DNA from: Bacteroidota bacterium
GTDB taxonomy: Bacteria > Bacteroidota > Bacteroidia > B-17B0 > Aurantibacillaceae
Direction of reading: 5' to 3'
Assembly (NCBI GenBank): GCA_016194985.1
Contig: JACQAK010000172.1
Location: 1 to 46,651 of the forward strand
Length of the DNA stretch: 46,651 nucleotides
Shown: positions 26,525-44,850 of the stretch, piece by piece
How positions within the stretch are numbered: position 1 is the stretch's first letter
Layout: each line of letters opens with the position of its first letter
The notes under the pieces: model-generated
Database searches by the model: none
What the model saw: the letters and a program-made list of their open reading frames with translations, nothing else
What the model was told of the DNA's origin: nothing
Translations under genes and position numbers: made by a program

Positions 26525-26555
26525 TTGCACTTATACCGTAAAAGTGGTATTTTTG
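26525..26555 (+). promoter_or_regulatory. Bacteroidota-type promoter of the suf operon
   Basis: TTG (26525-26527), a 20-nt spacer and TATTTTTG (26548-26555) match TTG-N17-23-TAnnTTTG. The predicted transcription start leaves a ~60-nt leader to sufA at 26622. The spacer contains the inverted repeat described next. Confidence 0.68.
26533..26550. promoter_or_regulatory. Candidate operator ATACC-N8-GGTAT inside the suf promoter
   Basis: An 18-bp inverted repeat with 5-bp arms (ATACC 26533-26537, GGTAT 26546-26550) and an 8-nt spacer lies between the -33 and -7 elements and overlaps the -7 box, as a repressor site would. The identical arms and spacing recur upstream of feoA at 44833-44850. The regulator is unknown. 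Confidence 0.5.
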
Positions 26556-26621
26556 TACCGCGTTTAGAATTAATCTAATTAAGGATATGGCGCAAGTAAC
26601 TAACAATTAATTACTTACAAA

Positions 26622-26948
26622 ATGATAACAGTTAGCAATGCAGCAAAAGAATATGCTGTAAATTTAATAAAGGAAGAAAATAAACCGGCCGATACATTCA
26701 TTCGTGTGGGGGTTGATGGGGGAGGATGTTCAGGATTAATGTACAATTTAGTATTTGACAATATTTTGAAAGAAGGCGACCAGTTATTTGAAGATAATGG
26801 CATTAAGGTAGTGGTTGATCGTAAAAGTTTTTTGTATTTAGTAGGCACTGAGTTGGATTATAGTGGCGGATTGAATGGAAAGGGGTTTATTTTTAAAAAT
26901 CCTAACGCTACGCGATCTTGTGGTTGCGGAGAATCCTTTAGTGTTTAA
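26622..26948 (+). CDS. sufA: A-type iron-sulfur cluster carrier (IscA/SufA family)
   Basis: 108 residues, standard for A-type carriers. The three cluster-binding cysteines are present: Cys36 in GGGCSGLMY, and Cys100 and Cys102 in the C-terminal SCGCG. A-type proteins accept [2Fe-2S] or [4Fe-4S] clusters from the SufBCD scaffold and hand them to target enzymes. It is the first gene of the suf operon, 65 nt before sufB; the gap holds a repeat element. I name it sufA from context; sequence alone does not separate IscA, SufA and ErpA. Confidence 0.92.
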   Translation: MITVSNAAKEYAVNLIKEENKPADTFIRVGVDGGGCSGLMYNLVFDNILKEGDQLFEDNGIKVVVDRKSFLYLVGTELDYSGGLNGKGFIFKNPNATRSCGCGESFSV

Positions 26949-26958
26949 ATATTCCATG

Positions 26959-27010
26959 TTTCTAGTTTCTAGTTATTCTTAACCCGAAACCCGAAACGTG
27001 TAACTAGAAA
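26959..27010. repeat. Palindromic repeat element between sufA and sufB
   Basis: The element has tandem heptamers (TTTCTAG twice, 26959-26972; CCCGAAA twice, 26983-26996) and perfect 10-bp inverted arms: TTTCTAGTTA (26966-26975) and TAACTAGAAA (27001-27010) around a 25-nt loop. It ends 3 nt before the sufB ATG. It resembles the short intergenic repeats common in Bacteroidota genomes. Confidence 0.7.
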
Positions 27011-27013
27011 AAA

Positions 27014-28465
27014 ATGGCAAACGAGATATTAGAAGAACATATACAGAACGAATATAAGTGGGGGTTTACCACAGATATTGCAGCTGATGAAGCTCCCAGG
27101 GGCCTCAACGAAGAAATCATTAAATTTATTTCTGCTAAAAAAAACGAACCCGAATGGATGCTGGAGTTTCGTTTAAAAGCGTTTCGTAATTGGCAAAACA
27201 TGGTAGAGCCTGAATGGGCGCATGTATCATACACCAAACCAAATTTTCAGGATATCATCTATTACTCTGCCCCTAAACCTAAAAAGGAATTGGCAAGTCT
27301 GGATGAAGTAGATCCTGAATTATTAAAAACATTCGAAAAGCTTGGTATATCACTTGAAGAACAAAAACGCCTAAGTGGTGTGCAAAGTAATATCGCTGTT
27401 GATGTTGTATTTGATAGTGTGTCTGTAAAAACAACGTTCAAAGAAACGCTGGCAGAAAAAGGAATTATTTTTTGCTCTTTTAGTGAAGCCGTTCAGGATC
27501 ACCCTGAACTGGTTAAAAAATATATGGGTATGGCAGTGCCTGCAACCGATAATTTTTATGCAGCATTAAATTCGGCTGTATTTACAGATGGGTCGTTTTG
27601 CTACATTCCAAAAGGAGTTCGTTCTCCTATGGAATTATCTACATATTTCCGAATAAATGCAAGTGGCACAGGACAATTTGAGAGAACCTTAATTATTGCA
27701 GATGAAGATTCATATGTTTCTTATCTCGAAGGTTGTACCGCGCCTCAACGTGATGAGAACCAATTACACGCCGCTGTGGTTGAAATCATCACACATAAAA
27801 ATGCTGAGGTGAAATACAGTACCGTACAAAACTGGTATCCGGGCGATAAAGAAGGTAAAGGTGGGATTTTTAATTTCGTAACCAAGCGGGGTTTATGTTT
27901 AGAAGATAATTCTAAAATCAGCTGGACACAAGTAGAAACAGGCTCTGCCGTTACCTGGAAATATCCTTCCGTTATTTTAAAAGGAAACAATTCAGTTGGC
28001 GAATTTTATTCGGTAGCAGTAACAAATAACTATCAGCAAGCTGATACCGGAACCAAAATGATTCATATTGGAAAGAATACACGTTCAACCATTATCTCAA
28101 AAGGGATTTCCGCAGGCTTTAGTAACAATAGTTACAGAGGCCTGGTGCAAATTAAAAAAGGAGCAAGCAATGCCCGTAACTTCTCACAATGTGATAGTTT
28201 ATTAATGGGAGATAAATGTGGAGCCCACACCTTCCCATATATTGAAATCAAAGATAAATCAGGTGTTGTAGAACACGAAGCAACAACCAGTAAAATAGGA
28301 GAAGATCAGTTATTCTATTGTAAACAACGCGGCATCGATAACGAAAAAGCCATTGGTTTAATTGTTAACGGATACTGTAAAGAGGTATTGAATAAATTGC
28401 CTATGGAGTTTGCGGTGGAAGCACAAAAATTATTAGCAATCAGTTTAGAAGGAAGTGTGGGATAA
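27014..28465 (+). CDS. sufB: Fe-S cluster assembly scaffold protein SufB
   Basis: 483 residues, the normal length. SufB is the cluster-building subunit of the SufBC2D complex in the cytoplasm. The start [22 protein letters not shown] and blocks such as [39 protein letters not shown] and [24 protein letters not shown] are characteristic. Its beta-helix cysteines are kept, including the one in GDKCGAHT known in SufB to receive sulfur or contact the cluster. It is followed by sufC after 78 nt containing another short repeat, then sufD and sufS. Confidence 0.98.
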
Positions 28466-28503
28466 TTTATAAGTAAAATTTAAAAACGACGCAATACAAA
28501 AAT

Positions 28504-28532
28504 AAATCTGCGGACATTTGCGAAATCTGCGG
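28504..28532. repeat. Short direct-repeat element between sufB and sufC
   Basis: AAATCTGCGG occurs twice (28504-28513 and 28523-28532) with a related ATTTGCG (28516-28522) between. It sits 11 nt before the sufC ATG. It is similar in type to the 'aatctgcgg(g)aaa' intergenic repeats I know from Flavobacteriia; the similarity is from memory, not a search. Confidence 0.55.
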
Positions 28533-28543
28533 GAAATAATAAA

Positions 28544-29302
28544 ATGATAAGCATAAAAAATTTACACGCTTCCATCGGCGATAAAGAAATATTAAGAGGA
28601 ATTAATTTAGAAGTAAAAGCCGGAGAAGTTCATGCCATTATGGGACCTAATGGCTCCGGAAAGTCAACGTTGTCAAGCGTTTTGGCGGGTCGAGAAGATT
28701 ATGAAGTAACGGAAGGTGAAGTAACATTCAATGGAAAAAACTTATTGGAGTTACCGGCTGAAGACAGAGCACGCGAAGGCCTTTTTCTGGCGTTCCAGTA
28801 TCCGGTAGAAATTCCGGGAGTTAGTAATATTAATTTCTTACGTACGGCTTTAAATGAAATCCGTGCTTACCATGGGCAGGAAGAAATGACGGCGAAAGAT
28901 TTTTTAGCGCTGGTAAAAGATAAATCCAAATTAGTGGAACTGGACTCAAAATTAGCAAGTCGTAGTGTGAACGAAGGATTTAGCGGTGGAGAGAAGAAAC
29001 GTAATGAGATCTTTCAAATGGCGATGCTGAATCCAAAACTGGCTATTTTGGATGAAACAGATAGTGGTTTGGATATTGACGCGTTGCGTATTGTAGCAAC
29101 AGGTGTCAACAAATTGAAATCAAAAGATAATGCAACGATTGTGATTACTCACTACCAACGCTTATTGGATTATATTGTTCCTGATTTTGTACACATCCTT
29201 TACAAAGGCCGTATTGTTAAAAGCGGAGGAAAAGAATTAGCCCTTGAATTAGAGGCCAAAGGATATGATGAAATTAAAAAAGAATTTGAAATAGCAGATT
29301 AA
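28544..29302 (+). CDS. sufC: Fe-S cluster assembly ATPase SufC
   Basis: 252 residues, an ABC-type ATPase that binds SufB and SufD and drives their rearrangement during cluster assembly. Walker A is GPNGSGKST, the signature motif GFSGGEKKRNEI and Walker B LAILDETDSGLDIDAL. SufC-specific features are the acidic ETDSGLD after Walker B and the FLAFQYPVEIPGV stretch in the Q-loop region. It has no membrane-spanning segments. The stop is 1 nt before the sufD ATG, so translation is probably coupled. Confidence 0.98.
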   Translation: MISIKNLHASIGDKEILRGINLEVKAGEVHAIMGPNGSGKSTLSSVLAGREDYEVTEGEVTFNGKNLLELPAEDRAREGLFLAFQYPVEIPGVSNINFLRTALNEIRAYHGQEEMTAKDFLALVKDKSKLVELDSKLASRSVNEGFSGGEKKRNEIFQMAMLNPKLAILDETDSGLDIDALRIVATGVNKLKSKDNATIVITHYQRLLDYIVPDFVHILYKGRIVKSGGKELALELEAKGYDEIKKEFEIAD

Positions 29303-29303
29303 T

Positions 29304-30593
29304 ATGTCGTTAGTAGTAGATAATAAAAGTGCTGTAACACAAAATTTGCTGGAACAATTGCAAAAAAAATCCGGAAAAATTGCGTTCATGCCGGATGCTG
29401 AAATCATTTCAGCCATCAGGTATTTAGAAGATAAAGGCATTCCCAATAATAAGCACGAAGACTATAAATACTGCAATATTGAAGCCGTACTTCGTAAAGA
29501 ATTCAAATCGGTTGAACAATCGTTTAACGAATTAACCAATGCGGATATTGCACCTCTTAAAATTGACGAAGCCATTAATTTAGTAGTGGTGAATGGCGTT
29601 TACAACGAAGGCTTAAGTGAAAAAATGATCGTGAAAGGCTTAACGGTTAAGTCATTAAACGAGTTGTCTTCTTCAGAAAAAAATATATTGTCGTCTCAGG
29701 CAAAAGCAGACACAGATGCATTAATTGCTTTAAACACGGCGTTTTCAGCTAACGGTTTGTTTTTACAGGTAGATAAAAACAATGTTATCCCAATGCCTTT
29801 ACATGTTATTTATGTAAACAGTGGAAATGCGAACATTGTAGCCAACACCCGCAGTTTTATTAATGTTCAGGCAAATGCACAGGCAACTCTTATCGAAAGT
29901 TTTTATAATATTGGCTCCGCCAAAGTATTCTCTAATTTTGTGAGCGAAAAATGTGTTGGCGAAAACGCCAAATTAATCTGCTATACATTTCAAAATGAAG
30001 GTCCTTTATCCTATTCGGTAAATACTAATCAGGTTAAGATCGGTAAGTATTCTAATTACAACAATACCACAATGACGCTTAGTGGAGAGTTGGTACGAAA
30101 TAACCATAATGTCGTACTGGCCGACTCTAATTGTGAGGCGCATTTGAATGGATTGTTTATTACCAATGGAACACAACAGGTGGATAATCATACATTGATT
30201 GACCATCAAATGCCTAATTGTGAGAGCAATGAATTATACAAAGGCATTGCTAAGGACAGATCTACAGGAACATTTAACGGAAAAATATTTGTTCGTAAGG
30301 ATGCGCAAAAAACAAATGCCTATCAAAGCAGTAAAAATATTTTGATGAGCGACGATGCCACCATTAACACCAAACCCCAATTAGAAATTTATGCCGATGA
30401 TGTTAAATGCTCTCATGGAACTTCAACCGGTAAAATAGATACAGAAGCCCTGTTTTATTTAAAAGCCCGTGGCATTGGTGAAGAAAGCGCACGTAAATTA
30501 TTATTACAGGCCTTTGCACAGGAATTAATTGATAAAATTGAAATTCCTTCTTTACAGGAAAGAGTATTACATTTGTTCGAAAAAGCACTTTAA
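29304..30593 (+). CDS. sufD: Fe-S cluster assembly protein SufD
   Basis: 429 residues. SufD is the SufB paralogue in the SufBCD scaffold and takes part in iron loading. The N-terminal region (..PNNKHEDYKYCNIEAVLRKEF) and C-terminal blocks (ELYKGIAKDRSTGTFNGKIFVRKDAQKTNAYQSSKNILMSDDA, KCSHGTSTGKIDTEALFYLKARGIGEESARKLLLQAF) are classic SufB/D beta-helix sequences, with the conserved Cys-Ser-His (CSHGTS). It starts 1 nt after sufC and is followed by sufS 4 nt after its stop. Confidence 0.97.
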   Translation: MSLVVDNKSAVTQNLLEQLQKKSGKIAFMPDAEIISAIRYLEDKGIPNNKHEDYKYCNIEAVLRKEFKSVEQSFNELTNADIAPLKIDEAINLVVVNGVYNEGLSEKMIVKGLTVKSLNELSSSEKNILSSQAKADTDALIALNTAFSANGLFLQVDKNNVIPMPLHVIYVNSGNANIVANTRSFINVQANAQATLIESFYNIGSAKVFSNFVSEKCVGENAKLICYTFQNEGPLSYSVNTNQVKIGKYSNYNNTTMTLSGELVRNNHNVVLADSNCEAHLNGLFITNGTQQVDNHTLIDHQMPNCESNELYKGIAKDRSTGTFNGKIFVRKDAQKTNAYQSSKNILMSDDATINTKPQLEIYADDVKCSHGTSTGKIDTEALFYLKARGIGEESARKLLLQAFAQELIDKIEIPSLQERVLHLFEKAL

Positions 30594-30597
30594 CAGT

Positions 30598-31860
30598 ATG
30601 GTGACTGAGGTTCTCGAAGTTACCATGAAACAAAACAACATGTTCGATATCCATAACATACGCAAAGATTTTCCTATTCTCCACCGAACAGTTAACGGAA
30701 AACCATTGGTATACCTGGATAATGGAGCTACCGCTCAAAAACCGAAGGTTGTTATTGATGCGATTACAAATTACTACACAAACCAAAATGCCAATATTCA
30801 TCGTGGGGTTCACACATTAAGCCGCGAAATTACTATTGCCTACGAGGAAGCCCGTAAAACCATTCAAACCCACATCAATGCCCAACACGCTCACGAAATT
30901 ATTTTTACAAGAGGCACAACAGAGTCCATCAATTTAGTAGCACATTGTTTTGGAAAAATAAATGTTTCTGCCGGAGATGAAATTGTGATCACACAAATGG
31001 AGCACCATAGTAATATTATTCCGTGGCAACAATTGTGCGAAGAAAAACAAGCCGTTCTAAAATACATTCCTATCAACGAAGCTGGGGAATTAGTGTTAGA
31101 GGATTTGCAAAAACTCATTACATCTAAAACCAAACTGATTGCTTTTACCCATATTTCCAATACTCTTGGAACAATCAACCCGGTTAAAGATATTATTAAA
31201 ACCATTCGTTCCTTATCATCAGCGGCTGTTTTAATTGACGGAGCGCAAGCTGTACCTCACTTAAAGCCAAATGTTCAGGATCTGGATTGTGATTTTTATG
31301 TGTTTAGCGGGCATAAATTATTTGGCCCAACCGGCGTAGGAATTTTATATGCAAAAGAATTATGGCTCAATAAATTCCCACCCTATCAAACAGGTGGAGG
31401 AACAATAAAAACAGTAACGCTTGAAAAAACAGAGTTCGCCGATTCTCCCTTAAAATTTGAAGCAGGCACCCCTCATATTGAGGGAGGCATTGGATTAGCA
31501 GCAGCTATTGATTATGTGAATAGGATTGGTTTGGATGCCATTGAAGCCTACGAACAACAACTCATGCATTATGCTACTGAAAAATTACTGGCAATAGAAG
31601 GGGTTAGAATTTATGGTTCAGCAAAATATCGTACATCAGTTATATCATTTAATGTTGGCACAATTCACCCTTTTGATGTAGGAACCTTATTGGATAAATA
31701 CGGAATAGCTATTCGCAGTGGCCACCATTGTACGCAACCAATTTGTCAGTTCTATGGCATTCCCGGCACTATCCGCGCATCCTTTGCATTTTATAATACA
31801 ATGGAGGAAATAGATTTGTTCATTGAAGCACTCAAAAAATCTATTAGGTTGTTGAGCTAA
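30598..31860 (+). CDS. sufS: Cysteine desulfurase SufS (class V aminotransferase fold, PLP-dependent)
   Basis: 420 residues from ATG 30598, the first ATG after the sufD stop. ATGs at 30625 and 30640 are alternatives, and relatives usually begin near the latter (MFDIHNIRKDFPIL). SufS removes sulfur from L-cysteine for cluster assembly. Marks include RGTTESINLVA, the PLP lysine in FSGHKLFGPTGVG, and the persulfide-forming Cys in IRSGHHCTQP. The motif RGVHTLS near the N-terminus is typical. It ends the operon; no sufE/sufU-like sulfur acceptor follows here. Confidence 0.95.
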   Translation: MVTEVLEVTMKQNNMFDIHNIRKDFPILHRTVNGKPLVYLDNGATAQKPKVVIDAITNYYTNQNANIHRGVHTLSREITIAYEEARKTIQTHINAQHAHEIIFTRGTTESINLVAHCFGKINVSAGDEIVITQMEHHSNIIPWQQLCEEKQAVLKYIPINEAGELVLEDLQKLITSKTKLIAFTHISNTLGTINPVKDIIKTIRSLSSAAVLIDGAQAVPHLKPNVQDLDCDFYVFSGHKLFGPTGVGILYAKELWLNKFPPYQTGGGTIKTVTLEKTEFADSPLKFEAGTPHIEGGIGLAAAIDYVNRIGLDAIEAYEQQLMHYATEKLLAIEGVRIYGSAKYRTSVISFNVGTIHPFDVGTLLDKYGIAIRSGHHCTQPICQFYGIPGTIRASFAFYNTMEEIDLFIEALKKSIRLLS

Positions 31861-31969
31861 TTCAGCTTGATTTTTGAAATTATTACAATCCAAAAGAATT
31901 AACGACTTACCACTTATTGGCTATGCGTCGCCAATTACAAAGTTGTAAATACCTATTTAGTTAATTCTG

Positions 31970-31977
31970 TATATTTG
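31970..31977 (+). promoter_or_regulatory. -7 element TATATTTG upstream of the PstS-like gene
   Basis: TATATTTG lies 13 nt before ATG 31991. A TTG at 31943-31945 is 24 nt upstream, slightly longer than the usual spacing. This supports a transcription start separate from suf. Confidence 0.45.
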
Positions 31978-31990
31978 ACAAACAAATAAC

Positions 31991-32908
31991 ATGAAACTTT
32001 TTTTTGCAACAATCATAGGTGTAGTTTTTTTTACTTCCTGCGGCATGCAGGATGATATCACTAAAAAAGATACACCAACATCCGGAAAAGCCAATCTGTT
32101 TTTTGATGAAGGATTAACACTACACATCAATAATCAGATCTATACATTTAAAACAACCTATAAATATGCAGACATTACATTACGTTCCTCTAATGAAAGG
32201 GAATGCATAGAAGCTCTGTATAATGATAGCTCCAAGGTTATTGCGATTTCAAGACCCCTGACCGAAAAAGAACTGCAACAATTCAAAACAAAGAACATCA
32301 TTCCTCAAACATCTGTTGTGGCCGGCGATGCCATTGCATTTATCGTGAGTAAAGAGTTTGCAGATTCTACCATATCTCTTCAGGAATTAACAGAACTTTT
32401 AAAAGGAAATGATAGCACGCTTATTAAAGGCCAGCATATCAAAGTAGTGTTTGATAATCCAAACTCCGGAAGCACACGCCAACTAAAAGATTCATTAATT
32501 CCTTCAGGTTCCTTTGGAAAAAACTGCACAGCATTAAACAATACCGAAGAGTTGGTTAAAGCAGTTGCCTCTGATTCTGTATCCATCGGCGTATGTGATT
32601 ACGCCTGGTTAAGCGATAAGGATGATACCAAAACAAAAGAGTTTTTAAAAACAGTTAAAATTCTGGCAGTCTCCAAAACCAGTAAAGAAACCGCTTATAT
32701 GCCCGATCAGTCTAACATTGCCACAAAGGCATATCCTTTATGCCGAAGTATTTGCATCATTCGCCGATCAGCAGAATTCAGCCTCGGAAAAGGCATCGAA
32801 ACTTTTATTGCCGGCCCAACAGGGCAGTTAATGTTTCTGAAACAAGGCTTACCTCCAAACAGACAGGAAGAACGCCTTATTGAAGTAGATATGACCCCTT
32901 TAAAATAA
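31991..32908 (+). CDS. PstS-like phosphate-type substrate-binding lipoprotein
   Basis: 305 residues. The signal sequence ends in FTSC, so Cys17 is probably lipidated. The fold pattern is that of the PstS/PBP-like family: IAISRPLTEKELQQF, VAGDAIAFIVSKE, IKVVFDNPNSGSTRQLKDSL (resembling the phosphate-binding 'SGT' loop) and GVCDYAWLSDKDD. A true high-affinity phosphate transporter would be next to pstCAB, which are absent. In Bacteroidota such proteins often accompany exbB-exbD-exbD-tonB and a TPR protein, suggesting a role in TonB-linked uptake rather than ABC transport. Here that set is on the opposite strand, 2.9 kb away. The ligand is unproven. Confidence 0.72.
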   Translation: MKLFFATIIGVVFFTSCGMQDDITKKDTPTSGKANLFFDEGLTLHINNQIYTFKTTYKYADITLRSSNERECIEALYNDSSKVIAISRPLTEKELQQFKTKNIIPQTSVVAGDAIAFIVSKEFADSTISLQELTELLKGNDSTLIKGQHIKVVFDNPNSGSTRQLKDSLIPSGSFGKNCTALNNTEELVKAVASDSVSIGVCDYAWLSDKDDTKTKEFLKTVKILAVSKTSKETAYMPDQSNIATKAYPLCRSICIIRRSAEFSLGKGIETFIAGPTGQLMFLKQGLPPNRQEERLIEVDMTPLK

Positions 32909-33071
32909 AATTCTATGATTTCTCCTCCTGAGATGGCAGAGAAGATGAGTTGATTATACGAGACCGAAACATTAAAATTATGTTAAATTTACTCTCGTTT
33001 TAAAGGCAACAGGGAGCGTGGCAGGTAAATTGATTTTAAAATGAAGTACTTTTAACATAAACAAAACCAAA

Positions 33072-33632
33072 GTGACTATTAAGCATAAAATAATCGTTGT
33101 ATTTCTTACCATTTTAAATGTGAAGATGGTTTCCCAAACCAGCAATATCTATCTAACGGAAGCAAGATTGATTATTGCTTCTGAAGATAAAAAGGGAAAG
33201 GCCTTTGAAGCCAATACAGAATATGCATACATGATTTTGAATTTAACCAATGGAGACTTTACATTAAACGCAGATTTATCAAACTTGAAAACAGGGGATA
33301 GAAAGCTGGATTCGGTTATTGTTTCGCAAGGACAGCAGGCACTCAGTTTCAAAGGAAATATTTCTGAAAACCTGTTTTTATTTAACCAACAAGTTAACGA
33401 CGAAAAAGATTACAATATGCCAGGACAACTTATTCTTAATGGAGTTTCCCTGCCTTGTATAGCCCAATTTGATCCGGTTAATTTTGGAGAAAAAAGTGAG
33501 TCGAAAAATTACAGAATGGACTTCAAATTAGTCGTTGATGCATCTAAAATAGCTATATTAGGGCTCGAAAATAAAACCAATAAACAAGTAGTTTTTGAAA
33601 TAATTGATGGGAAATTAAATACCCAGTTATAA
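33072..33632 (+). CDS. Secreted YceI-like protein
   Basis: 186 residues from a GTG at 33072, which gives a plausible signal peptide (KHKIIVVFLTILNVKMVSQ); the next ATG, 33126, would remove it. Mature features such as NGDFTLNADLSNL, LSFKGNI, LFLFNQQVNDEKDY and YRMDFKLVVD fit the YceI/lipid-binding lipocalin-like pattern, but the match is by eye and weak. YceI proteins bind isoprenoids or act in stress tolerance. It lies 17 nt before the TPR gene and 163 nt after the PstS-like gene, and is probably co-transcribed with the TPR gene. Confidence 0.6.
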   Translation: MTIKHKIIVVFLTILNVKMVSQTSNIYLTEARLIIASEDKKGKAFEANTEYAYMILNLTNGDFTLNADLSNLKTGDRKLDSVIVSQGQQALSFKGNISENLFLFNQQVNDEKDYNMPGQLILNGVSLPCIAQFDPVNFGEKSESKNYRMDFKLVVDASKIAILGLENKTNKQVVFEIIDGKLNTQL

Positions 33633-33649
33633 AACAGAGTAAACACATC

Positions 33650-35320: not shown

Positions 35321-35348
35321 AGTATAATCTTCTGGTTATTATAAAAAG

Positions 35349-35375
35349 AAAGGCTTTGCATTGTGCAAAGCCTTT
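35349..35375 (+). terminator. Rho-independent terminator after the TPR gene
   Basis: A perfect 12-bp stem, AAAGGCTTTGCA / TGCAAAGCCTTT, with a 3-nt loop is followed by further T's. Confidence 0.88.
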
Positions 35376-35475
35376 TTAATTTGATCTATGTCTTTCTAAA
35401 CAAGGCCGAAAGAGCTACTGGTTTATTCCTGAAATGCACCTAAAAGCAATAATAAACAGACAGAAGATTGTGGGC

Positions 35476-35685: not shown

Positions 35686-35797
35686 TATATAATCTATTGG
35701 TTTGCTGATGTTGTCTCGTTATCACATAATTCGGCATTTTTGATATTCTGAATCACGTTTCGGTGCAACAGTAAGGTTAAGAAAACACTTTAAAAAA

Positions 35798-35827: not shown

Positions 35828-35845
35828 GTTATAGGGAACTAACTA

Positions 35846-36649: not shown

Positions 36650-36650
36650 A

Positions 36651-37292
36651 TTATTTTATTTTTTCTTGTAATAATGCAAACTCAGGAGCCGACATTTCAA
36701 CACCTAATACACGCTTTCCTACATTACAAATTTTTAATTCATCCAACATATCAATGGCATTTTTATAAGTAGCCTGATCGTCGGTTTTAATTAAAACAGT
36801 AATGGCTCTGGAGTCAGCGGTAGCGTCAACAGCCATACGTTTGTAGGTTGTATCAGCCAATTGTTTGTTTTTATTTTTTTCGGTTAAGCCTTTGATTTCG
36901 TCTATTGCCCATTTATTTTGCTCCATTAACAACGTGTGTAAACCTTCAGGGCTAAAGTTTGTTTCTTTTAATTCTGTAGCTGGTTTTCCTGCCGGATTGC
37001 CCGGAGCATTAAACTGGCCTACATAATAAAATATCCGATCATCTTTAGTCAATAAAAAGGTAACCCCGTTTTTAACTTCAGGTGGTGGTGGGCTATTCGG
37101 AGGTGGTTCTGCCGGTAAGCTTAACTCCATACTTTTTGGTTTACTAAAGGTTGATGTTAAAACGAAGAACGTTAATAACAGGAACGCTAAATCTACCATT
37201 GGAGTCATATCCACGCGGGTACTCTGTTTCTTGGCGCGTTTTTTACCGCCTTTGCCATGCCCGCCGCCGCCGCTTTCTGCTATTTCTGCCAT
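36651..37292 (-). CDS. exbD: Biopolymer transport protein ExbD (second copy)
   Basis: 213 residues. A Gly/Lys-rich N-tail precedes VDMTPMVDLAFLLLTFFVLTSTF, the single membrane segment, with the proton-pathway Asp34. The periplasmic domain has the typical ExbD ending ..AITVLIKTDDQATYKNAIDMLDELKI. It works with ExbB as a proton-driven stator for TonB. It is 1 nt upstream of tonB and 24 nt downstream of the first exbD. Two different ExbD proteins in one operon are common in Bacteroidota. Confidence 0.95.
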   Translation of the reverse strand: MAEIAESGGGGHGKGGKKRAKKQSTRVDMTPMVDLAFLLLTFFVLTSTFSKPKSMELSLPAEPPPNSPPPPEVKNGVTFLLTKDDRIFYYVGQFNAPGNPAGKPATELKETNFSPEGLHTLLMEQNKWAIDEIKGLTEKNKNKQLADTTYKRMAVDATADSRAITVLIKTDDQATYKNAIDMLDELKICNVGKRVLGVEMSAPEFALLQEKIK

Positions 37293-37316
37293 GTTAAATT
37301 AGTTTTTTAATTAATA

Positions 37317-38000
37317 TTATTTTTTAGGTTCAGCTGCAGGAACTGACGACCCGCCTTCCATTGATGTAATCAAATTGAAGGTATAAATTTTCATATCAGT
37401 AAAGGTTTTGAATACATCTTTTACATAAATGTATTTTGCTTTTGCATCTGCTTTAATAGCGTAGCGAGGCTTTTCTCCTTTAAATTCCTGTCCGCTGGAT
37501 TCAGCTTTTTCACGATTTCTTGTATAAATAACATTCAACTCAGTGGCTGAAATTTGAATCCAGTCTCTCAATTGGTTATTTAATGAATCTAAAGGAACAC
37601 CTTTTTGTGGCTGAAATTTTAATCTTTCTGCTTCAGAAGCGTCCAGATATCTTGGTAAATCTTTTATTTCAACACCAAAACTAGACAATCCACCAAATTT
37701 TTTAACCTGGTCGGCATTAAATTTAACGCCATACTTTTCGCTCATTTTAGCTAAAGTATTTGTTCTAGCTTCGCCATTACCTACTCCAAAGAATGCTCTA
37801 CCAATGTTATCCACTGTAATTAATACGGTGTTTTCCGGTAAAGTTTTATCAGAAACGGATGATGGTGGATCCACAATCACCGGTTCTGCCATACGAAATG
37901 AAGCAGTCAACATAAAGAATGTAACCAATAAGAACGCTAAATCCACCATAGGAGTCATATCTATGCTCGGTGCATGTTTTGCTGGTTTTATCTTTGGCAT
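37317..38000 (-). CDS. exbD: Biopolymer transport protein ExbD (first copy)
   Basis: 227 residues. The membrane segment SIDMTPMVDLAFLLVTFFML carries Asp20. The periplasmic domain is about 40 residues longer than in classical ExbD and includes a long central insert (about 60-135, ..KKFGGLSSFGVEIKDLPRYL..). The C-terminal YAIKADAKAKYIYVKDVFKTFTDMKI is ExbD-like. The low similarity to the second copy suggests distinct roles, perhaps forming heteromeric stators. It lies 65 nt after exbB. Confidence 0.93.
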   Translation of the reverse strand: MPKIKPAKHAPSIDMTPMVDLAFLLVTFFMLTASFRMAEPVIVDPPSSVSDKTLPENTVLITVDNIGRAFFGVGNGEARTNTLAKMSEKYGVKFNADQVKKFGGLSSFGVEIKDLPRYLDASEAERLKFQPQKGVPLDSLNNQLRDWIQISATELNVIYTRNREKAESSGQEFKGEKPRYAIKADAKAKYIYVKDVFKTFTDMKIYTFNLITSMEGGSSVPAAEPKK

Positions 38001-38065
38001 GACTTATTTTTTAGTTACTAATTAATAGATGAAATTTGTTTTTTATTTCCATAAGGGAAACAAAA

Positions 38066-38869
38066 TTATTTTCCTGAAGTTTGGAATTCCTGAATGATAG
38101 AGAATCCTGCTTCATCCATTGCATAAGTAATTTGATCTACACGGTTTGAGAAGAAGTTGTAGAAAATAATAGCTAACGCAGAAGATAAGATACCTACTAA
38201 TGTATTAACCAAGGCTTCAGAGATACCTGTTGCTAAGGCTGCTGTATCAGGAGTACCAGCTGCAGCTAAGGCACCGAAGGCACGAATCATACCTACAACC
38301 GTTCCGATTAGACCAACTAAGGTACCAATTGAAGCACATGTAGAAATAACGCTTAAGTTTTTAGATAACATTGGTAATTCTAATGCTGTAGCTTCTTCTA
38401 ACGCTTTAGAAATAGCTGCAACTTTAGCCTCTTTATCCATTGTATTATCGTTTTGAACGAATTGGTATTTCATTAACCCTTCGCGAACCACATTTCCTAA
38501 AGATCCTTTTTGTTTGTCGCAAGCTGCAATAGCTCCTTCAAAATCTTTAGCAGCAATTAATTCCTTAATTTTTGATACAAATTTATCTGTATTACCAGCA
38601 CCGTTTGCTTTTTGAATGGTAATTAAACGCTCAAAGAAAAAGCATAATACTGTAAATAAAGTTCCTAATAAGATTGGTACGATAAATCCACCTTTGTACA
38701 TGATACCAAAGAAATTGTGAGGATGTCCTTTTTCAGGGCCTTCGGCATCAAAATTACCGGCATCACCTAATACAAATTTATAAACTACGACTCCGATTAC
38801 TAAACAGATAATGATAGCAATTGCTGAAACGATTAATGGAAAACCGCCTGATGTTTTTTTGTTACTCAT
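38066..38869 (-). CDS. exbB: ExbB/TolQ/MotA-family proton channel protein
   Basis: 267 residues. Three hydrophobic regions (about 10-30, 57-75, and a pair in 150-230) fit the MotA/TolQ/ExbB fold, plus an additional N-terminal membrane segment seen in Bacteroidota ExbB. The segment TCASIGTLVGLIGTVVGMIRAFGALAAAG and the ATGISEALVNTLVGILSSALAII stretch are the conserved channel helices. It forms the pentameric stator with ExbD and drives TonB. First gene of the operon, with a consensus promoter 44 nt upstream. Confidence 0.95.
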   Translation of the reverse strand: MSNKKTSGGFPLIVSAIAIIICLVIGVVVYKFVLGDAGNFDAEGPEKGHPHNFFGIMYKGGFIVPILLGTLFTVLCFFFERLITIQKANGAGNTDKFVSKIKELIAAKDFEGAIAACDKQKGSLGNVVREGLMKYQFVQNDNTMDKEAKVAAISKALEEATALELPMLSKNLSVISTCASIGTLVGLIGTVVGMIRAFGALAAAGTPDTAALATGISEALVNTLVGILSSALAIIFYNFFSNRVDQITYAMDEAGFSIIQEFQTSGK

Positions 38870-38912
38870 AATAGTTGTTTTTTTAGTTAGTTTCTAATTT
38901 TTAGAATGACGC

Positions 38913-38943
38913 CAAACATAATAAAAAGGTTTTTAAATAACAA
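38913..38943 (-). promoter_or_regulatory. Bacteroidota-type promoter of the exbB operon
   Basis: Minus strand: TTG (38943-38941), a 20-nt spacer, and TATGTTTG (38920-38913), then 43 nt to the exbB start at 38869. The rest of the 346-nt gap 38870-39215 holds the repeat at 39097-39211 and nothing else I can support. Confidence 0.68.
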
Positions 38944-39096
38944 TATTTGAATGCTATCTTTTTGTTAATGTTAATAACGCTTCTATTTGTCTAATTACGC
39001 TATTTTTCTACAAATATGATGAGTTTTTGGAAATAAAATCAGATGGGTTTGTAACTGGTTGATTTTGGGCAATAAGTGGTTGAAAAGAAGTCTAAT

Positions 39097-39211
39097 TTCA
39101 ACACAGAGGCATGGAGTTTGGGAGAACACTGATAAAAAAGCGAGGTTTGGATATTTGAAGGGATTAAAAAAAACTCCGCCAACATAATTCCTCATATTCC
39201 TCTGCGTTGAA
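39097..39211. repeat. MITE-like palindromic repeat element next to the truncated OmpA-type gene
   Basis: The outer arms TTCAACACAGAGG (39097-39109) and CCTCTGCGTTGAA (39199-39211) are inverted repeats with one mismatch. Inner sequences (GGAGTTTGG.. and ..AACTCC) show weaker similarity in the same sense. The 115-nt element has no ORF of its own, as in non-autonomous repeats of Bacteroidota. It ends 4 nt before the stop codon of the truncated gene. Confidence 0.6.
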
Positions 39212-39215
39212 TAAG

Positions 39216-40708
39216 TTACTTCAAATAACTAATCGCAATGATCTGTATTTTCCGTTCGCTGGCCGCAAAAGGGCTATAAACCGAGTAGTCCTGCATGCCG
39301 GCATCTACACTGTCTTCAAAGAAATTCTCTACCCGGTTAAGGGCGTAGTTTTTGGCTTCACCTTCCAACCCTTTTGGGTATTCGGCCAGGTACTTTGGTT
39401 TTAATATTGTATAATCTTCGTAAGTTTTTTTGTAATTCTTTTTTGTTACAATCACTTTTGTTTTGGGTTCAGGTTCGTCGTTGTGAAAATAGAGTGTCAG
39501 AGGAACCAACACTTTCATTTGATTAATTAACAGAGCTGTTGTATCAATGGGCTTTGGCGGTTCTGTTAAAGGTGTAATCGGGAAACTATAGATATCATTA
39601 CAGCAATTGGGTTTATCCTCAAAATAAGAGCCTTCTCTTTTACGAACCAGGGGGTAATATCGTCTTCGATCGTATTTACTTTTTTTCCTGCGTTGATAGG
39701 TGTTTCAAAGGTTCCGTCCGCATTCATAAAAGTGTACCATATATCCATTCCACCTTCGCCGGCGCCTCTGTCGCTTGAGAAGAATAAGGTGGCTTTTCCA
39801 TTGAGTTCACTTAGACATGGCTGAGTGGTATTGCTTCCGCTCACATTAATGGGGGGTGGTAGTTTTTGCAATTCGGTCCAGTGTCCGTCTTTAAAATCAG
39901 ACACATAAATTTCGCAGCGGTATTGACTGTAATTTAATGCTCCGCATCTGGATACAAATACTTTTGTAAAATCAGCATTAAAGCTGGTGTTGGCGTTATG
40001 TATACCGCTTTTGTTAAATAAAGAGTCGAGCTCTTTGGCTTTGAGGAATTTGTTTTCTTTTTTTGCTGATTTTTTGGAAGTATAAAGTTTATTAAATCCC
40101 ACGCCGGCTGCATCCGTTTTTGACTTATCCCGCAGCGAAGAAAAATAGAGAAGGCTGTCATATTCGAAAGGGGCATATTCGCTTACTTTACTGTTTACAG
40201 CACTATCCAAGTGTACAACTTTTACATCCACCGGATTTTTAATTAACACCTGTGCTATATCGCAAGCTTCAAATTCCTGTTTTGCTTTGGCGGCCAAACG
40301 GGCTTTTTCTTTGTCTTTACTGTTGCGTTGTTTCTTGTAATATTTATCAAAGTATTTTTTGGCGTCTTTGTATTTACCGGAGCTTTTTAGCAATGTGGCA
40401 ATATAAAAAGGCACTTCTTTGTAGGTTTTGCCATTGTCTTTTTTATAAACTTTTTCATACCAATGCAGGGCTACATCATAATCTGAGTTTAAGCGTGAAG
40501 CATCGGCAAATAGTAGTTGATAATCTGTTTTTGAAGAATCCATTAAAATAACCTGATTGTAATATTGGGCCGCCGAGGAATAATCTTTTTTAGAAGCAGC
40601 CTCGGCGCCTAGTTTTAAAAACTGTTTGAGACTTTGAGAAAACAAGCCGGATCCAATGAAGATACCAATTATTAAAAGTACTATATGTGTTTTCTTACGC
40701 GTGCTCAT
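39216..40708 (-). pseudogene. PD40/OmpA-type T9SS-associated protein, frameshifted and C-terminally truncated
   Basis: The gene starts at ATG 40708 with a signal peptide (MSTRKKTHIVLLIIGIFIGSGLFS). It then has TPR-like repeats (about 27-135) and a beta-propeller/PD40 region. Near 39650 the frame is lost: one frame runs to a stop at 39566 with nonsense sequence, whereas the adjacent frame continues with family sequence (REGSYFEDKPNCCNDIYSF, then LPLTLYFHNDEPEP-like VPLTLYFHNDEPEP). Adding one C to the five-C run at 39651-39655 (as GGGGG on the plus strand) restores DITPLVRKREGSYF. Such proteins normally finish with a periplasmic OmpA peptidoglycan-binding domain, but here the sequence stops just as that begins (..KIQIIAISYLK), next to a repeat element. 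It lies 1 nt downstream of a PorP/SprF gene. It may be an assembly error, a pseudogene, or a shortened functional version. Confidence 0.75.
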
Positions 40709-40709
40709 A

Positions 40710-41747
40710 TTACATGTAAACCGGACAAACTCTTGTTTTTGGAACGAATGGAATTATTTTTTTGAAAATGTATGTTACGTATATTTCAAAACCACCCCGG
40801 CGATTAGTTGCAGCGATAAACTTGCTGGTATTAACATCGTAACTTACGCCTGTAGTTAATGTTTTAACCTGATAGCCCAGCCTGGCAATCACGGCATCTT
40901 TTGCCCTGTAGTATAAACCAACAGAAGCGGCCTGATTTGTTTTTTGGTCTAAATGAAATTTGAACTGTGCTCCTGGAATTACTTCATTGTATTTTCCCTG
41001 ATGGGAGTAAAGTATTTCAGCTATTACATCTGTTGTAGCACCAATAGGGTAAGCAACGCAGAGATAGTTATTTAACTTTGCATCAATACGGATATTGGCA
41101 TTATTTTGAAAGCTTATTTTTGGATTTGTGAAGTGATGGTAGGAAATACCGTATTGAACGAATGCCCGTTGCTTAATGGCATATTGTAGCGCCGTTCCAA
41201 AATTGAAATCTCCAAAGGTAGTGGCATTTTTTGCAAAGCCTTCGCCGGTGCCGTTGGAAGAACTGTAACTATTGTTCTGATATTGGTCGTCAAAGGTCAT
41301 GCGACTATAGTTAAACCCAACGCTTGAGATCCCCATCATAATTCCTGTTGTCCAGAGTAGGGTTGAATCTTTATTGATTTTGTGAATATAGGATCCGGAA
41401 AGATATAATTGATTGGTGCCGTAATAGGTGTCGCCCGACTTATCATTATTAAACATAATACCGGCACCAAAGCAATCGCTTCTCATGTTTTTGGGTTTAA
41501 AACGGGCGTCTCCGGCAATAGAAAAAGAGCGATAAGGAACAGGAACACTGCTCCACTGGCTTCTTAAAATACCATTTACTCTATAATCGCCATCAAAAAA
41601 ACCGGTAAAGGCAGGGTTGAGGTTAATGACCGAACCGTTATATTGAGAGAAATGAACATCCTGAGAAAACGTGAATTTAGAATTCAAAGCGATGAACACT
41701 AAAAGCAAGAACGTTTGTAATGAAACATATGTTGGTTTGATTTTCAC
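40710..41747 (-). CDS. PorP/SprF-family outer-membrane protein
   Basis: 345 residues. Signal peptide to about residue 29, then DVHFSQYNGSVINLNPAFTGFFDGDYRVNGILRSQWSS, the hallmark start of PorP/SprF proteins. A beta-barrel-like pattern follows, and the sequence ends in VCPVYM, like the C-terminus of the family. SprF-type proteins are needed for surface delivery of their partner CHU_C-domain adhesin, here probably the product of the preceding gene (41752-43479), 4 nt upstream. It has the opposite order to many genomes only in that the OmpA-type partner downstream is broken. Confidence 0.93.
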   Translation of the reverse strand: MKIKPTYVSLQTFLLLVFIALNSKFTFSQDVHFSQYNGSVINLNPAFTGFFDGDYRVNGILRSQWSSVPVPYRSFSIAGDARFKPKNMRSDCFGAGIMFNNDKSGDTYYGTNQLYLSGSYIHKINKDSTLLWTTGIMMGISSVGFNYSRMTFDDQYQNNSYSSSNGTGEGFAKNATTFGDFNFGTALQYAIKQRAFVQYGISYHHFTNPKISFQNNANIRIDAKLNNYLCVAYPIGATTDVIAEILYSHQGKYNEVIPGAQFKFHLDQKTNQAASVGLYYRAKDAVIARLGYQVKTLTTGVSYDVNTSKFIAATNRRGGFEIYVTYIFKKIIPFVPKTRVCPVYM

Positions 41748-41751
41748 GGCC

Positions 41752-43479
41752 TTATCTGATTAATGTCACGTTTCCTTTTTTGAAGACTTCTTCGCTTTGT
41801 TCATTACACTTCGCTTTTACGTAATAGCCAAAAACACCGGGATCTGAAGGTTTGCCTTTAAAGTTACCATCCCATCCCTGTGTTGGATCATTCGTTTCAA
41901 ATAACAATTCCCCCCATCTGTTATATACGGCGAAATAAAAAACAGAGAACAAAGGACCTCTGACTTTGAAAATGTCGTTATGCCCGTCTCCATTAGGGGT
42001 GAACGTGTTTGGAATATAAAGCTCCGGATTGGTAACCACATGAATGGTTTGCGCAGATAAGGTGTCGATGCAATTTATAGAATTCGGAATTTGTGTGACC
42101 AGGGTTACCTGAAAACTTCCTCCTGAAGCGTAGTAATGACCTGGGTTTTGGACAGAAGAAGTGTCTCCGTCACCGAAATTCCAGCTCCATACCGGTGTTG
42201 TTCCGGGTGGATTTTCGACAGATGCGCTAAATTTTACCAGATTTTCGGTGCAGGGAATAGCGGTATATGTAAAGGCGCCTTTAAAAGCATTACTGATAGA
42301 GACAACCGTATTTACGGTATCGTTGCATAGTGGTTTTGTACTGATGTATGCTACCAGAGATACAGAATAACTTCCGGTGCCCGGATAAGTATAAGACGGT
42401 GTAACGGCATGAGAGGTATCGGCAGTCGTTGTAGGATCGCCAAAATTCCAGTTGAACCCTAAGCCGGAGCTACCGGTACTATTATTGGAAAAAGAAACAG
42501 AAGTTGTTCCACAAATGGCCTGTGGTGCCTGTGCCGCTGCCACCACAACCTGTGGACAAGGCTTTACGATTAACTGAAAATCGCGTTTGGTTTCACTTAA
42601 AAACACACCGTGGCGGTACTCTTTTACTTTAATGCCGATTACAAAATAACCTAATAAGTTGGGAGTGGCAGTTACGAGACCGGTTGAAGGATTAATTTGC
42701 ATAGGAACGCCACCTAACATATCGCTTGTTGAGTATGGAGATTTCCACACAATGGGTGTAAACGGTGGATTTACAGGAACGGGAGGGCACGATGCTACTG
42801 TATTTGGGCACGATGTTCCTGCGGGAGACGGAACCGGTAATGTTACTATAGGGCAGTCCGGTGTTAAGCCATCATAGGGTGTAAATAATTCATACACTAA
42901 AGAATCTCCATCGTAATCAATAGCTGAGTTATCAAACACCCAAGGTTTGTTCACACAAATAAATGGCGGCGGCCAAAACTTAATAACAGGATTGCTATTA
43001 ACGGCTACAGTTTCCGGCCCCGGAATACTTGCATAATAGGTTGCTCCTACACAACTTGGATTTACAATATTTAAGATGTTTACGTTTCGGCAACAACGCT
43101 GGTAAGAAATTTGGTAACCTCCGGTTAAAGGAGGTAAATTTACAGTATCTATATATGTGGTTACTTCGTAGCAAAAATCCAAAGGAGGAATAGTGCAGGG
43201 GTCATTAATTGTTGGGGGAAGAGTGTCTAGTCCTCTAAAAGACATTTTTAGTGTTTTAAGCAATTGATTGTTGCTGTTAAATATTCCTACAAAAGCGGGG
43301 TCATCAAACGGAGGAATGCCTACATAGCAATCTCTGTATACCGTTAAGCGAATCTCGTAGTTGTTTGATCCTAAATATTTATAGTTTAATTCGCCTCCAA
43401 CAATATGAGTTGCCTTGGCTTCAAAAATGCTCAAAAGGCAACAAACAAATAAAAAAAATGAAAGTATTTGTTTACGCAT
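41752..43479 (-). CDS. PKD-domain surface protein with gliding-motility C-terminal (CHU_C) domain
   Basis: 575 residues. Signal peptide to about residue 24, then HIVGGELNYKYLGSNNYEIRLTVYRDCY, the typical N-terminus of this Bacteroidota surface-protein type. A Cys-rich, Pro-rich region follows (with YQRCCRNVNI, PPPFICVNKPW). Two PKD domains lie at about 305-395 (WNFGDPTTTADTSHAVTPSY) and 400-480 (WSWNFGDGDTSS). A C-terminal CHU_C domain spans about 485-575 (LYIPNTFTPNGDGHNDIF, VYNRWGELLFET, GWDGNFKGK). The product is exported by T9SS. It is followed by PorP/SprF and the OmpA-type gene, the usual three-gene set. The start sits just after the terminator of the adjacent small gene. Confidence 0.9.
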   Translation of the reverse strand: MRKQILSFFLFVCCLLSIFEAKATHIVGGELNYKYLGSNNYEIRLTVYRDCYVGIPPFDDPAFVGIFNSNNQLLKTLKMSFRGLDTLPPTINDPCTIPPLDFCYEVTTYIDTVNLPPLTGGYQISYQRCCRNVNILNIVNPSCVGATYYASIPGPETVAVNSNPVIKFWPPPFICVNKPWVFDNSAIDYDGDSLVYELFTPYDGLTPDCPIVTLPVPSPAGTSCPNTVASCPPVPVNPPFTPIVWKSPYSTSDMLGGVPMQINPSTGLVTATPNLLGYFVIGIKVKEYRHGVFLSETKRDFQLIVKPCPQVVVAAAQAPQAICGTTSVSFSNNSTGSSGLGFNWNFGDPTTTADTSHAVTPSYTYPGTGSYSVSLVAYISTKPLCNDTVNTVVSISNAFKGAFTYTAIPCTENLVKFSASVENPPGTTPVWSWNFGDGDTSSVQNPGHYYASGGSFQVTLVTQIPNSINCIDTLSAQTIHVVTNPELYIPNTFTPNGDGHNDIFKVRGPLFSVFYFAVYNRWGELLFETNDPTQGWDGNFKGKPSDPGVFGYYVKAKCNEQSEEVFKKGNVTLIR

Positions 43480-43497
43480 CTTCTAAGATAAATAAAA

Positions 43498-43523
43498 AAA
43501 CCCTGATTACAAAATCAGGGTTT
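43498..43523 (-). terminator. Rho-independent terminator of the DUF6341-like gene
   Basis: A perfect 11-bp stem, AAACCCTGATT / AATCAGGGTTT, with a 4-nt loop is followed on the minus strand by a run of T. It lies in the 75-nt gap before the CHU_C gene. Confidence 0.88.
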
Positions 43524-43553
43524 AACTATAAAATGTTCAAAAAAGAGCTAAAA

Positions 43554-43754
43554 TTATCTTAACGTGCCGTTTTTATCGGCTTCTTTGTTTTGCTTAATAA
43601 TTTGTAATGTTTGGTAAATCAATAAAAAGATAATGATTGACCAAAGAACGATGTTTGGCCCGTGACCTAAAACACGCATTCCTTTCCATACATATTGAGA
43701 AAAATCACCAATACCATAAAAAACATCTGTCATTGTAATCATTAAAGAAGTCAT
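43554..43754 (-). CDS. Small membrane protein, DUF6341-like
   Basis: Up to 66 residues; ATGs at 43754 and 43733 are both plausible, the latter giving MTDVFYGIGDF. One membrane segment (about 36-52) precedes a short Lys-rich tail (QIIKQNKEADKNG). In Flavobacteriia a protein of this size and shape (DUF6341) sits next to a DUF6427 protein, as here. The match is by pattern and gene order. It is transcribed divergently from the DUF6427-like gene, 72 nt apart; the gap has a TAnnTTTG box on each strand (43762-43769 plus, 43790-43783 minus). The function is unknown. Confidence 0.65.
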   Translation of the reverse strand: MTSLMITMTDVFYGIGDFSQYVWKGMRVLGHGPNIVLWSIIIFLLIYQTLQIIKQNKEADKNGTLR

Positions 43755-43826
43755 ATTAATCTAATTTTGTAAGTTTACAGCACAAAAATATAATTTTTTC
43801 TTTATAAAAGCGATTTTCTACAAAAA

Positions 43827-44816
43827 ATGATTGTTGGCCCATTAAAAAACAATATTCAATTATCGGTTATTATACTGTTGCTGTTTTGTATAGGGGCCTG
43901 GGTAACCACATTTGCTTTTGTTAATGTAGAGACTTCGCCTATTAATTATAAGGAGCACATACTATACTCCTTTCTTCTGGGAAACGGTTTTTCTTTTACA
44001 TTCAATCAAATGATTAGCCTGTTTGCCATTTTACTGGGAGCTTTTTTTGTGAATTTTTTAGCGATTGAGCAGGAAATTACTTCGAAAACCAATTACCTGC
44101 CTGCCTTTTTTTATTTATTGTTTGCTTTTTCGGCCACAACCAAGAGCATGATAGAACCTTTGTTAACGGCTAATTTGTTCGTATTACCGGCGTTATATTT
44201 TTTAATAAACAGTTACCGTCAGGATTATGCACTGGCAGAGTTCTTTAAAGCTGGAATATTTATGGGGTTGGCCTCGTTTTTCTGTATCGATTACATTACT
44301 GTTTTTCCGTTAAGTTTTATTGCGCTTATTATTTTGAGGCCATTTAACTGGCGGGAGTGGGTTATTTTGCTGATCGGATTACTGACCCCTTTATATATTT
44401 ATATTGGTATTTGCTATTTAACTACCAACGATGCTTTTACTGTATTTGATATGATGAAAGAAGCCATATCTACCATACAAAAACCAATTATTTCAGAATA
44501 CTATGTAGGCTTTATTTTCATTACGATTCTTGCCCTTGCGTTTGCTCTGATTCACTATCTGGGGAAGGGATTTGGAGGAAAGGTAAAGACACAGAAAACA
44601 AAATACATTTTGTTATGGATGATGGTATTTTGCTTATTTATGGTGTTTTTTGAGCAAATGTCGGATATGATTTTATTATCCGGCATTATTCCCCTGAGTA
44701 TTATTATTGGCGATTATTTGTCGGAAATCAAACAGCTCAAAATTGCCAATACGTTATTGGTGTTATTTATTGGAGGTTTTTCCATTATTTATTTGCATGC
44801 GTTAGGTATTATCTAA
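43827..44816 (+). CDS. Multi-pass membrane protein, DUF6427-like
   Basis: 329 residues with about nine to ten hydrophobic segments and only short charged loops. The N-terminus (MIVGPLKNNIQLSVIILLLFCIGAW), the conserved LFAFSATTKSMIEPLLTANLFVLPAL block and ALIILRPFNWREWVILLIGLLTPLYIY fit DUF6427, a Bacteroidota-specific membrane family of unknown function. It is paired with the divergent DUF6341-like gene. A feo operon follows after a 76-nt gap holding inverted repeats, with no terminator seen. Confidence 0.75.
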   Translation: MIVGPLKNNIQLSVIILLLFCIGAWVTTFAFVNVETSPINYKEHILYSFLLGNGFSFTFNQMISLFAILLGAFFVNFLAIEQEITSKTNYLPAFFYLLFAFSATTKSMIEPLLTANLFVLPALYFLINSYRQDYALAEFFKAGIFMGLASFFCIDYITVFPLSFIALIILRPFNWREWVILLIGLLTPLYIYIGICYLTTNDAFTVFDMMKEAISTIQKPIISEYYVGFIFITILALAFALIHYLGKGFGGKVKTQKTKYILLWMMVFCLFMVFFEQMSDMILLSGIIPLSIIIGDYLSEIKQLKIANTLLVLFIGGFSIIYLHALGII

Positions 44817-44832
44817 ATTTTCAATAAAGTGT

Positions 44833-44850
44833 ATACCCTTTTTTAGGTAT
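44833..44850. promoter_or_regulatory. Candidate operator ATACC-N8-GGTAT upstream of feoA
   Basis: ATACC (44833-44837) and GGTAT (44846-44850) form an 18-bp inverted repeat, extended by a T-A pair to TATACC / GGTATA. It has the same arms and 8-nt spacer as the repeat in the suf promoter (26533-26550). It starts 60 nt before the feoA ATG, near where a -33 element would lie if the TAAATTTA at 44873-44880 acts as -7 box. Confidence 0.5.

Follow-up and report, generated by a model that had tools for sequence, protein, structure and literature searches.

In a 46,651-nucleotide contig from a Bacteroidota bacterium of the Aurantibacillaceae (JACQAK010000172.1, assembly GCA_016194985.1; this whole stretch is called the window below), the promoters of the suf operon and of the feoAB genes for ferrous iron uptake carry the same inverted repeat, ATACC-N8-GGTAT. 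That this site is real, and that it belongs to an iron and iron-sulfur (Fe-S) regulon, is close to certain. The protein that acts on these sites is likely to be a NarL-type response regulator with three invariant cysteines, encoded elsewhere in the same genome, and a cofactor held by these cysteines is plausible. No published description of the operator or of the three-cysteine regulator was found in the open-access literature searched.

A shared operator at the suf and feo promoters

The two copies in the window, ATACCGTAAAAGTGGTAT at 26533-26550 and ATACCCTTTTTTAGGTAT at 44833-44850, are exact, against a mean of 0.05 expected from 100 shuffles of the window, none of which contained two. When all spacers from 0 to 30 nucleotides between ATACC and GGTAT were tested on the forward strand, N8 gave two matches, N30 gave one and the others none. 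The first-pass annotation of this DNA had described two copies with identical arms and spacer, improbable by chance, and had seen no third one by eye; both statements were borne out by a full scan of the window, though the genome as a whole (4.23 Mb in 236 contigs) contains 13 copies. The features of the two regions, all on the forward strand, are listed below.

26524-26527 (+): TTTG, -33 box of the suf promoter, 20 nucleotides before the -7 box
26533-26550 (+): suf operator ATACC-N8-GGTAT, found by pattern, filling the -33/-7 spacer
26548-26555 (+): TATTTTTG, -7 box of the suf promoter, overlapping the operator by TAT
26563-26578 (+): TTTAGAATTAATCTAA, Fur box, a separate palindrome resembling the Riemerella Fur box
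26622-26948 (+): sufA (Pfam Fe-S_biosyn)
27014-28465 (+): sufB, open reading frame (ORF) named by sequence recognition
26622-31860 (+): the suf block, with SufC-, SufD- and SufS-like ORFs after sufB, named by sequence recognition
44833-44850 (+): feo operator ATACC-N8-GGTAT, found by pattern, in an activator position
44873-44880 (+): TAAATTTA, -7 box of the feo promoter, 22 nucleotides after the operator
44893-45147 (+): feoA (Pfam FeoA)
45137-46651 (+): feoB, ORF named by sequence recognition, cut by the end of the window

The placement of the suf copy between the -33 and -7 boxes, overlapping the latter, agrees with the earlier reading of this promoter, as does that of the second copy directly 5' of feoA. 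The TTTG upstream of the suf operator is what we take to be the -33 element. The -7 boxes follow TAnnTTTG, the -7 box of flavobacterial sigma-A (PMC9723704), and the palindrome at 26563-26578 is called a Fur box because it resembles ATTTAGAATTATTCTAAAT, reported for Riemerella Fur with support from electrophoretic mobility shift assays (PMC5609570). This palindrome has the form TTTAGA-N5-TCTAAA, unlike TACC-N8-GGTA, so that the ATACC site is not a Fur box, as had been remarked from the sequence at first sight.

Conservation of the site was followed in 61 genomes of the family, in which sufB was found in 57 and feoB in 55 (the window's feoB ORF being the query for feo), and the best 30 of 57 places for suf and the best 30 of 56 for feo were examined. 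The core TACC-N8-GGTA is present at all 30 suf loci, within 700 nucleotides upstream in 25 and farther upstream in five; its apparent absence from these five was rejected once a longer scan had located it. All 29 loci with a sufA match also contain GGTAnnTTTG and a Fur box, and among the 31 matches to TACC-N8-GGTAnnTTTG in the 30 suf loci 24 have TTG at a 20-nucleotide gap and seven do not. At feo the core was found at all 29 loci that include feoA, the thirtieth (L126) starting inside feoB, and the distance from the operator to the -7 box is tightly held, being 22 nucleotides in 23 loci, 21 in four, 23 in one and 20 in one. The comparison of suf and feo upstream regions in relatives, which the first-pass annotation had proposed as a check, thus came out in favor of the site. 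Fur boxes were seen at none of the 29 feo promoters, and no TTTG was seen at -33 of the feo promoter of the window; with TTTG missing at that position, the repeat would occupy the place of a class II activator. The joint consensus of suf and feo sites is approximately ATACC-A-Y-W-TTT-A-W-GGTAT, with the AT core oriented oppositely at the two promoters.

A composite suf pattern, consisting of the TACC-N8-GGTA core, GGTAnnTTTG and the Fur box, was scanned in 119 genomes of the class Bacteroidia and found in 26, as compared with none for the reversed control. In all 26 it lies 5' of sufA, as judged by tblastn in 25 and, in the remaining one, at the end of a contig, from as much of its start as can be read.

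An additional inverted repeat, TACCCTTTTT...AAAAAGGGTA (44835-44875), overlaps the feo operator and promoter of the window, and inspection by eye of further feo promoters failed to reveal it there. The longest ORF of the window, at 8461-17337, has 2958 residues.

Other promoters with the site and the extent of the regulon

In the window's own genome ATACC-N8-GGTAT occurs 13 times, against six for the reversed control; ten copies begin 0-72 nucleotides 5' of an ORF of at least 70 residues, two are within ORFs and one is intergenic, 219 nucleotides from the next ORF. Beyond suf and feo, the genes 3' of these copies encode a TonB-receptor, a NarL-type response regulator, a PagL-type protein, small secreted proteins and lipoproteins, so that not every gene behind a copy is an iron gene. 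Proteins with a DUF7793 domain are encoded close to two of the copies (L001:1928-2356 and L004:1737-2126). The bare pattern is present in 39 of the 41 genomes searched, and the arms by themselves do not define an iron regulon. In several of the relatives that were scanned, as the first-pass annotation had suggested, it is no more frequent than its reversed control: the two occur 4 and 5 times in G004, 5 and 6 in G008, 2 and 4 in G010, 5 and 5 in G023, and 3 and 7 in G033, for example. The signal is thus carried by position and core and not by the bare arms.

An operator role for the repeats was weighed against the explanation that they are chance matches or hairpins of a leader RNA, to which we attach a negligible probability. 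Inverted repeats can form hairpins, and the two copies inside ORFs would be in line with this explanation, but the phasing to the -7 box is kept in 30 of 30 suf and 29 of 29 feo loci and the composite pattern recurs in the class. Moreover, because both sites are 5' of the -7 box or overlap it, they are not transcribed from the suf and feo promoters, and the leader hairpin was rejected on this account.

A search for TACC-N8-GGTA followed after 21-24 nucleotides by TAnnTTTG yielded 63 matches in 20 genomes and only four for the reversed control. Sorted by a rule of our own, 25 of these (18 of them with a total length of 47) have the AT core, 22 (15 of them with a length of 46) are of the form TACCC..GGGTA, and the remaining 16 fit neither type. 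Among the genes behind the AT-core group, named by sequence recognition, there are feo, HmuY-like (L153, L167, L190), TonB-receptor-like (L137, L170) and imelysin-like (L173) genes, and a Fur box stands between the site and the -7 box at L137, L167, L169 and L188. The TACCC..GGGTA group is found mainly 5' of small secreted proteins and lipoproteins, in most cases one base nearer to the -7 box; examples are C210:3367-3384, C210:3722-3739 and C219:30230-30247 of the own genome, and L147, L160, L171, L181 and L186. We treat these promoters as a second class, probably read by another NarL-type factor, and an iron-specific reading of every copy was rejected, given that many copies in the genus, mostly of the TACCC..GGGTA form, precede small secreted proteins and lipoproteins. 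The earlier suggestion of an undescribed iron or Fe-S regulon was nevertheless supported, since suf and feo retain the site across the family and in other families and it also stands 5' of HmuY-, TonB-receptor- and imelysin-like genes.

A NarL-type candidate regulator with three invariant cysteines

Our candidate for the protein that reads these sites is a 218-residue orphan response regulator of the NarL/FixJ type, encoded outside the window (G000:C15:12278-12934, G000 being the own genome), with a receiver domain (PF00072) and a GerE/LuxR helix-turn-helix (HTH) domain (PF00196), both above their cut-offs. It is related to P0001, a NarL-type protein treated below, and is widespread, 56 of the 61 family genomes having a match at E ≤ 1e-30. 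Three cysteines, C106, C126 and C151, are invariant in 31 of 31 aligned rows and again in 111 of 111, with exactly 19 residues between C106 and C126; the larger set (80 contigs, 30 loci and the own protein) was chosen by similarity and includes some genomes twice. Taishania pollutisoli CZZ-1 is among the carriers of the protein. An intact response-regulator pocket comprises an acidic pair, an aspartate and a lysine, and in the 111 rows it is not intact, the second acid being kept in four, Lys104 in 78 and Asp55 in 110. A profile search of the 119 class genomes at E ≤ 1e-45 gave 58 positives, all of which were read for the cysteines: 57 have the three, and G099, the weakest match, has none of them. 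The three-cysteine protein is also present in G152 and G033, making 59 class genomes in all. As a control, a relaxed search of 22 genomes at 1e-25 returned 30 loci, four of them with all three cysteines, and G091 and G102 with the first two.

The predicted structure (mean predicted local distance difference test score, 87.9; predicted template modeling score, 0.63) comprises the receiver and the HTH, together with a helix at 127-134 and a linker at 142-150 that is modeled with low confidence. C106 lies in the loop that leads into helix alpha5, C126 where alpha5 meets alpha6, and C151 where the interdomain linker ends, so that C126 and C151 flank the segment matching the alpha5-alpha6 loop and helix alpha6 of NarL, which have been reported to influence release of the output domain and DNA binding (PMC4549865). 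We infer that a cofactor, if present, would sit at this hinge. A NarL-type 7-2-7 operator consists of inverted heptamers 2 bp apart. The TACC-N8-GGTA spacing is found in TACCCCTAAAGGGGTA, an engineered NarL 7-2-7 site (PMC4549865), and also in all 58 aligned suf and feo sites, as the search pattern used required; the full NarL heptamer TACYYMT (PMC4886647) is only partly matched by them.

The gene of the three-cysteine regulator has a Fur box within 250 nucleotides upstream at 16 of 136 loci, where the remaining sequence of these loci would predict 0.6, and the ATACC-type site at six, where 1.7 would be predicted, in four distinct sequences at 75-80 nucleotides from the start. The loci with a Fur box are L232, L234, L235, L237-L242, L245, L247, L250-L252, L282 and L290, several of which are labelled Flavobacteriales. 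Three invariant cysteines would also be compatible with thiol-based redox switching or with zinc binding, with oxidants or zinc as the signal instead of iron or Fe-S state; the functional context, namely suf, feo and heme/iron uptake genes as targets and Fur boxes at those 16 regulator loci, argues against such a signal, which we consider unlikely.

Importantly, the regulator and the sites occur together. Of the 26 genomes that have the composite suf pattern, 25 yielded the three-cysteine protein, 24 of them at E ≤ 1e-45 and the other being G152, and the cysteines were read in all 25. Fisher's test by genome gave 4e-8 (25 of 60 with the protein against 1 of 59 without, G099 being counted as positive though it belongs in the second group) and 2.5e-7 when only the strict threshold was used; by family, with hand-counted numbers, it gave 8.5e-5 (16 of 31 against 1 of 27). 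In an outgroup comparison with one genome per family, the feo core was present in 9 of 13 genomes with the protein and 0 of 13 without it (12 readable; G037 has no readable upstream region), with p = 4.6e-4, and G090, which has the protein, has a feo core with a single mismatch and is outside these nine. The suf core was present in 8 of 15 against 1 of 13 (p = 0.016), and the single match (G098) reads as inside sufA; when it is discounted, the comparison becomes 8 of 15 against 0 of 13 (p = 0.0025). All these p values are optimistic owing to relatedness, and because only 22 genomes were re-searched at 1e-25, the protein may have been missed in some of the genomes counted as negative.

A shared distribution could also arise if another factor, of the Crp/Fnr type or a different NarL-type protein, read the sites and the three-cysteine protein merely had the same distribution. 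There are many NarL-type candidates in the own genome, 36 at first look for P0001, and the class II position at feo also suits Crp/Fnr proteins. P0001 itself is the NarL-type protein encoded by a site-bearing gene, and all four close orthologues have the site in the promoter of that gene. An HmuY-like gene comes next in all four, identified by PF14064 for the own-genome copy and by resemblance for the other three. Close orthologues of P0001 (at least 71% identity), however, were found in just 4 of the 61 family genomes, whereas the sites are family-wide, and P0001 was rejected as family-wide reader for this reason. The three-cysteine protein tracks the sites by family, as counted above, and in some lineages its gene is preceded by Fur boxes or by the site. 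Another factor as reader is thus quite unlikely in our view. P0001 has extra cysteines and is accompanied by an HmuY-like gene at L192:2053-11669, L193, L045 and L046, and the own-genome cluster additionally encodes two TonB receptors, a second HmuY and a protein of the DtxR/MntR type.

The first-pass annotation had suggested an Rrf2-type (IscR-like) reader from a likeness of the half-sites to some Rrf2-type sites. The function of the targets would suit such a regulator, and Rrf2 genes were found in 20 of 32 genomes searched at E ≤ 1e-10, the own genome included. However, none was detected at this threshold in G003, G017, G021, G031, G036, G083, G087, G109 and G121, all of which keep the suf site, the feo site or both, whereas G084, G089, G098, G103 and G025 have Rrf2 and no site at the suf and feo promoters. 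This phyletic pattern led us to reject Rrf2/IscR, which would need a gene too divergent to be detected and is very unlikely, while a NarL-type protein fits the geometry and the co-occurrence better.

Proposed regulation and relation to known systems

In the model that we favor, the two repeats would be operators of one conserved iron/Fe-S regulon of Bacteroidia, bound by the three-cysteine regulator, whose HTH dimer would engage both TACC half-sites in the way NarL engages a 7-2-7 site, with an Fe-S cluster or iron at the three cysteines replacing phosphate as the signal. At suf, where the operator sits between the -33 and -7 boxes, the bound regulator would block a complete promoter. At feo and the heme/iron-uptake genes it would stand about 22 nucleotides before the -7 box of a promoter missing its -33 box and assist RNA polymerase, a polarity that is suggested by operator position. 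Fur would add a second, repressing layer at suf and some uptake genes. The DNA-binding state could be an iron-starved form, raising uptake while saving iron at suf; a low-oxygen form loaded with a cluster, as in FNR, would fit as well. The three invariant cysteines are compatible with an Fe-S-sensing factor of the IscR/FNR type and may hold iron or a cluster. On balance, it seems reasonably probable that the three-cysteine regulator senses iron or Fe-S status through its cysteines, represses suf and activates ferrous iron and heme uptake.

Several observations weigh against this model. C151 adjoins a low-confidence linker of the predicted structure, and the regulator gene in family loci is generally without a site of its own. 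The three-cysteine protein was not found in G094 (460 contigs), which has the suf pattern; conversely, the composite suf pattern in its strict form is missing from 34 of the 59 class genomes that encode the protein, and 7 of the 15 outgroup genomes encoding it show no site at suf. Co-occurrence is also compatible with another regulator of equal distribution, the sole alternative family checked being Rrf2. Finally, in Riemerella the suf and feo genes are listed together as Fur-independent, changed under iron restriction in both the wild type and the fur mutant, apparently upwards, although the wording is ambiguous (PMC5609570), and this joint listing does not fit simple opposite control.

The domain architecture of the candidate, receiver plus GerE/LuxR HTH, is that of NarL, VraR and LiaR, and the nearest solved relatives are VraR, LiaR, ChrA and NarL. 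NarL also represses and activates and binds 7-2-7 sites with the TACC-N8-GGTA spacing (PMC4549865), a dual role that is here proposed for the candidate. Unlike the NarL family, the three-cysteine regulator has a decayed pocket and three invariant cysteines, two of which (C106 and C126) are absent from five PDB alignments, and its targets would be suf, feo and heme uptake, whereas those of NarL are in nitrate respiration. If the model is right, a suf operon and iron uptake would both be under Fe-S-linked control through a single operator family, which would recall IscR and other Rrf2 regulators, although the candidate is devoid of an Rrf2 domain and Rrf2 is undetected in nine genomes with sites. 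Fur of Bacteroidota likewise exerts iron control over suf and uptake genes, and its box adjoins the suf operator. SsoR of Shewanella is a further parallel, an atypical phosphorylation-independent response regulator acting in iron homeostasis beside Fur (PMC12442407); it belongs to another phylum, its abstract names no cysteine cofactor, and the likeness is one of description.

What emerges is a defined operator, a promoter anatomy in which Fur adds a second layer, and a named candidate together with the residues concerned. The Riemerella listing shows a Fur-independent iron response in a relative (PMC5609570), and the three-cysteine regulator could account for it at suf and feo, provided that Riemerella encodes such a protein. 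More broadly, and with chances that we place somewhat short of even, these proteins may represent a new family of Fe-S- or iron-sensing factors, NarL-type pseudo-receivers in which three cysteines replace phosphorylation, which would act in many Bacteroidia as a counterpart of IscR, repressing suf and activating ferrous iron and heme uptake by way of a NarL-like 7-2-7 operator, Fur providing the second layer. If it is true that the cysteines carry a cluster, a response-regulator fold would have been turned into an Fe-S sensor.

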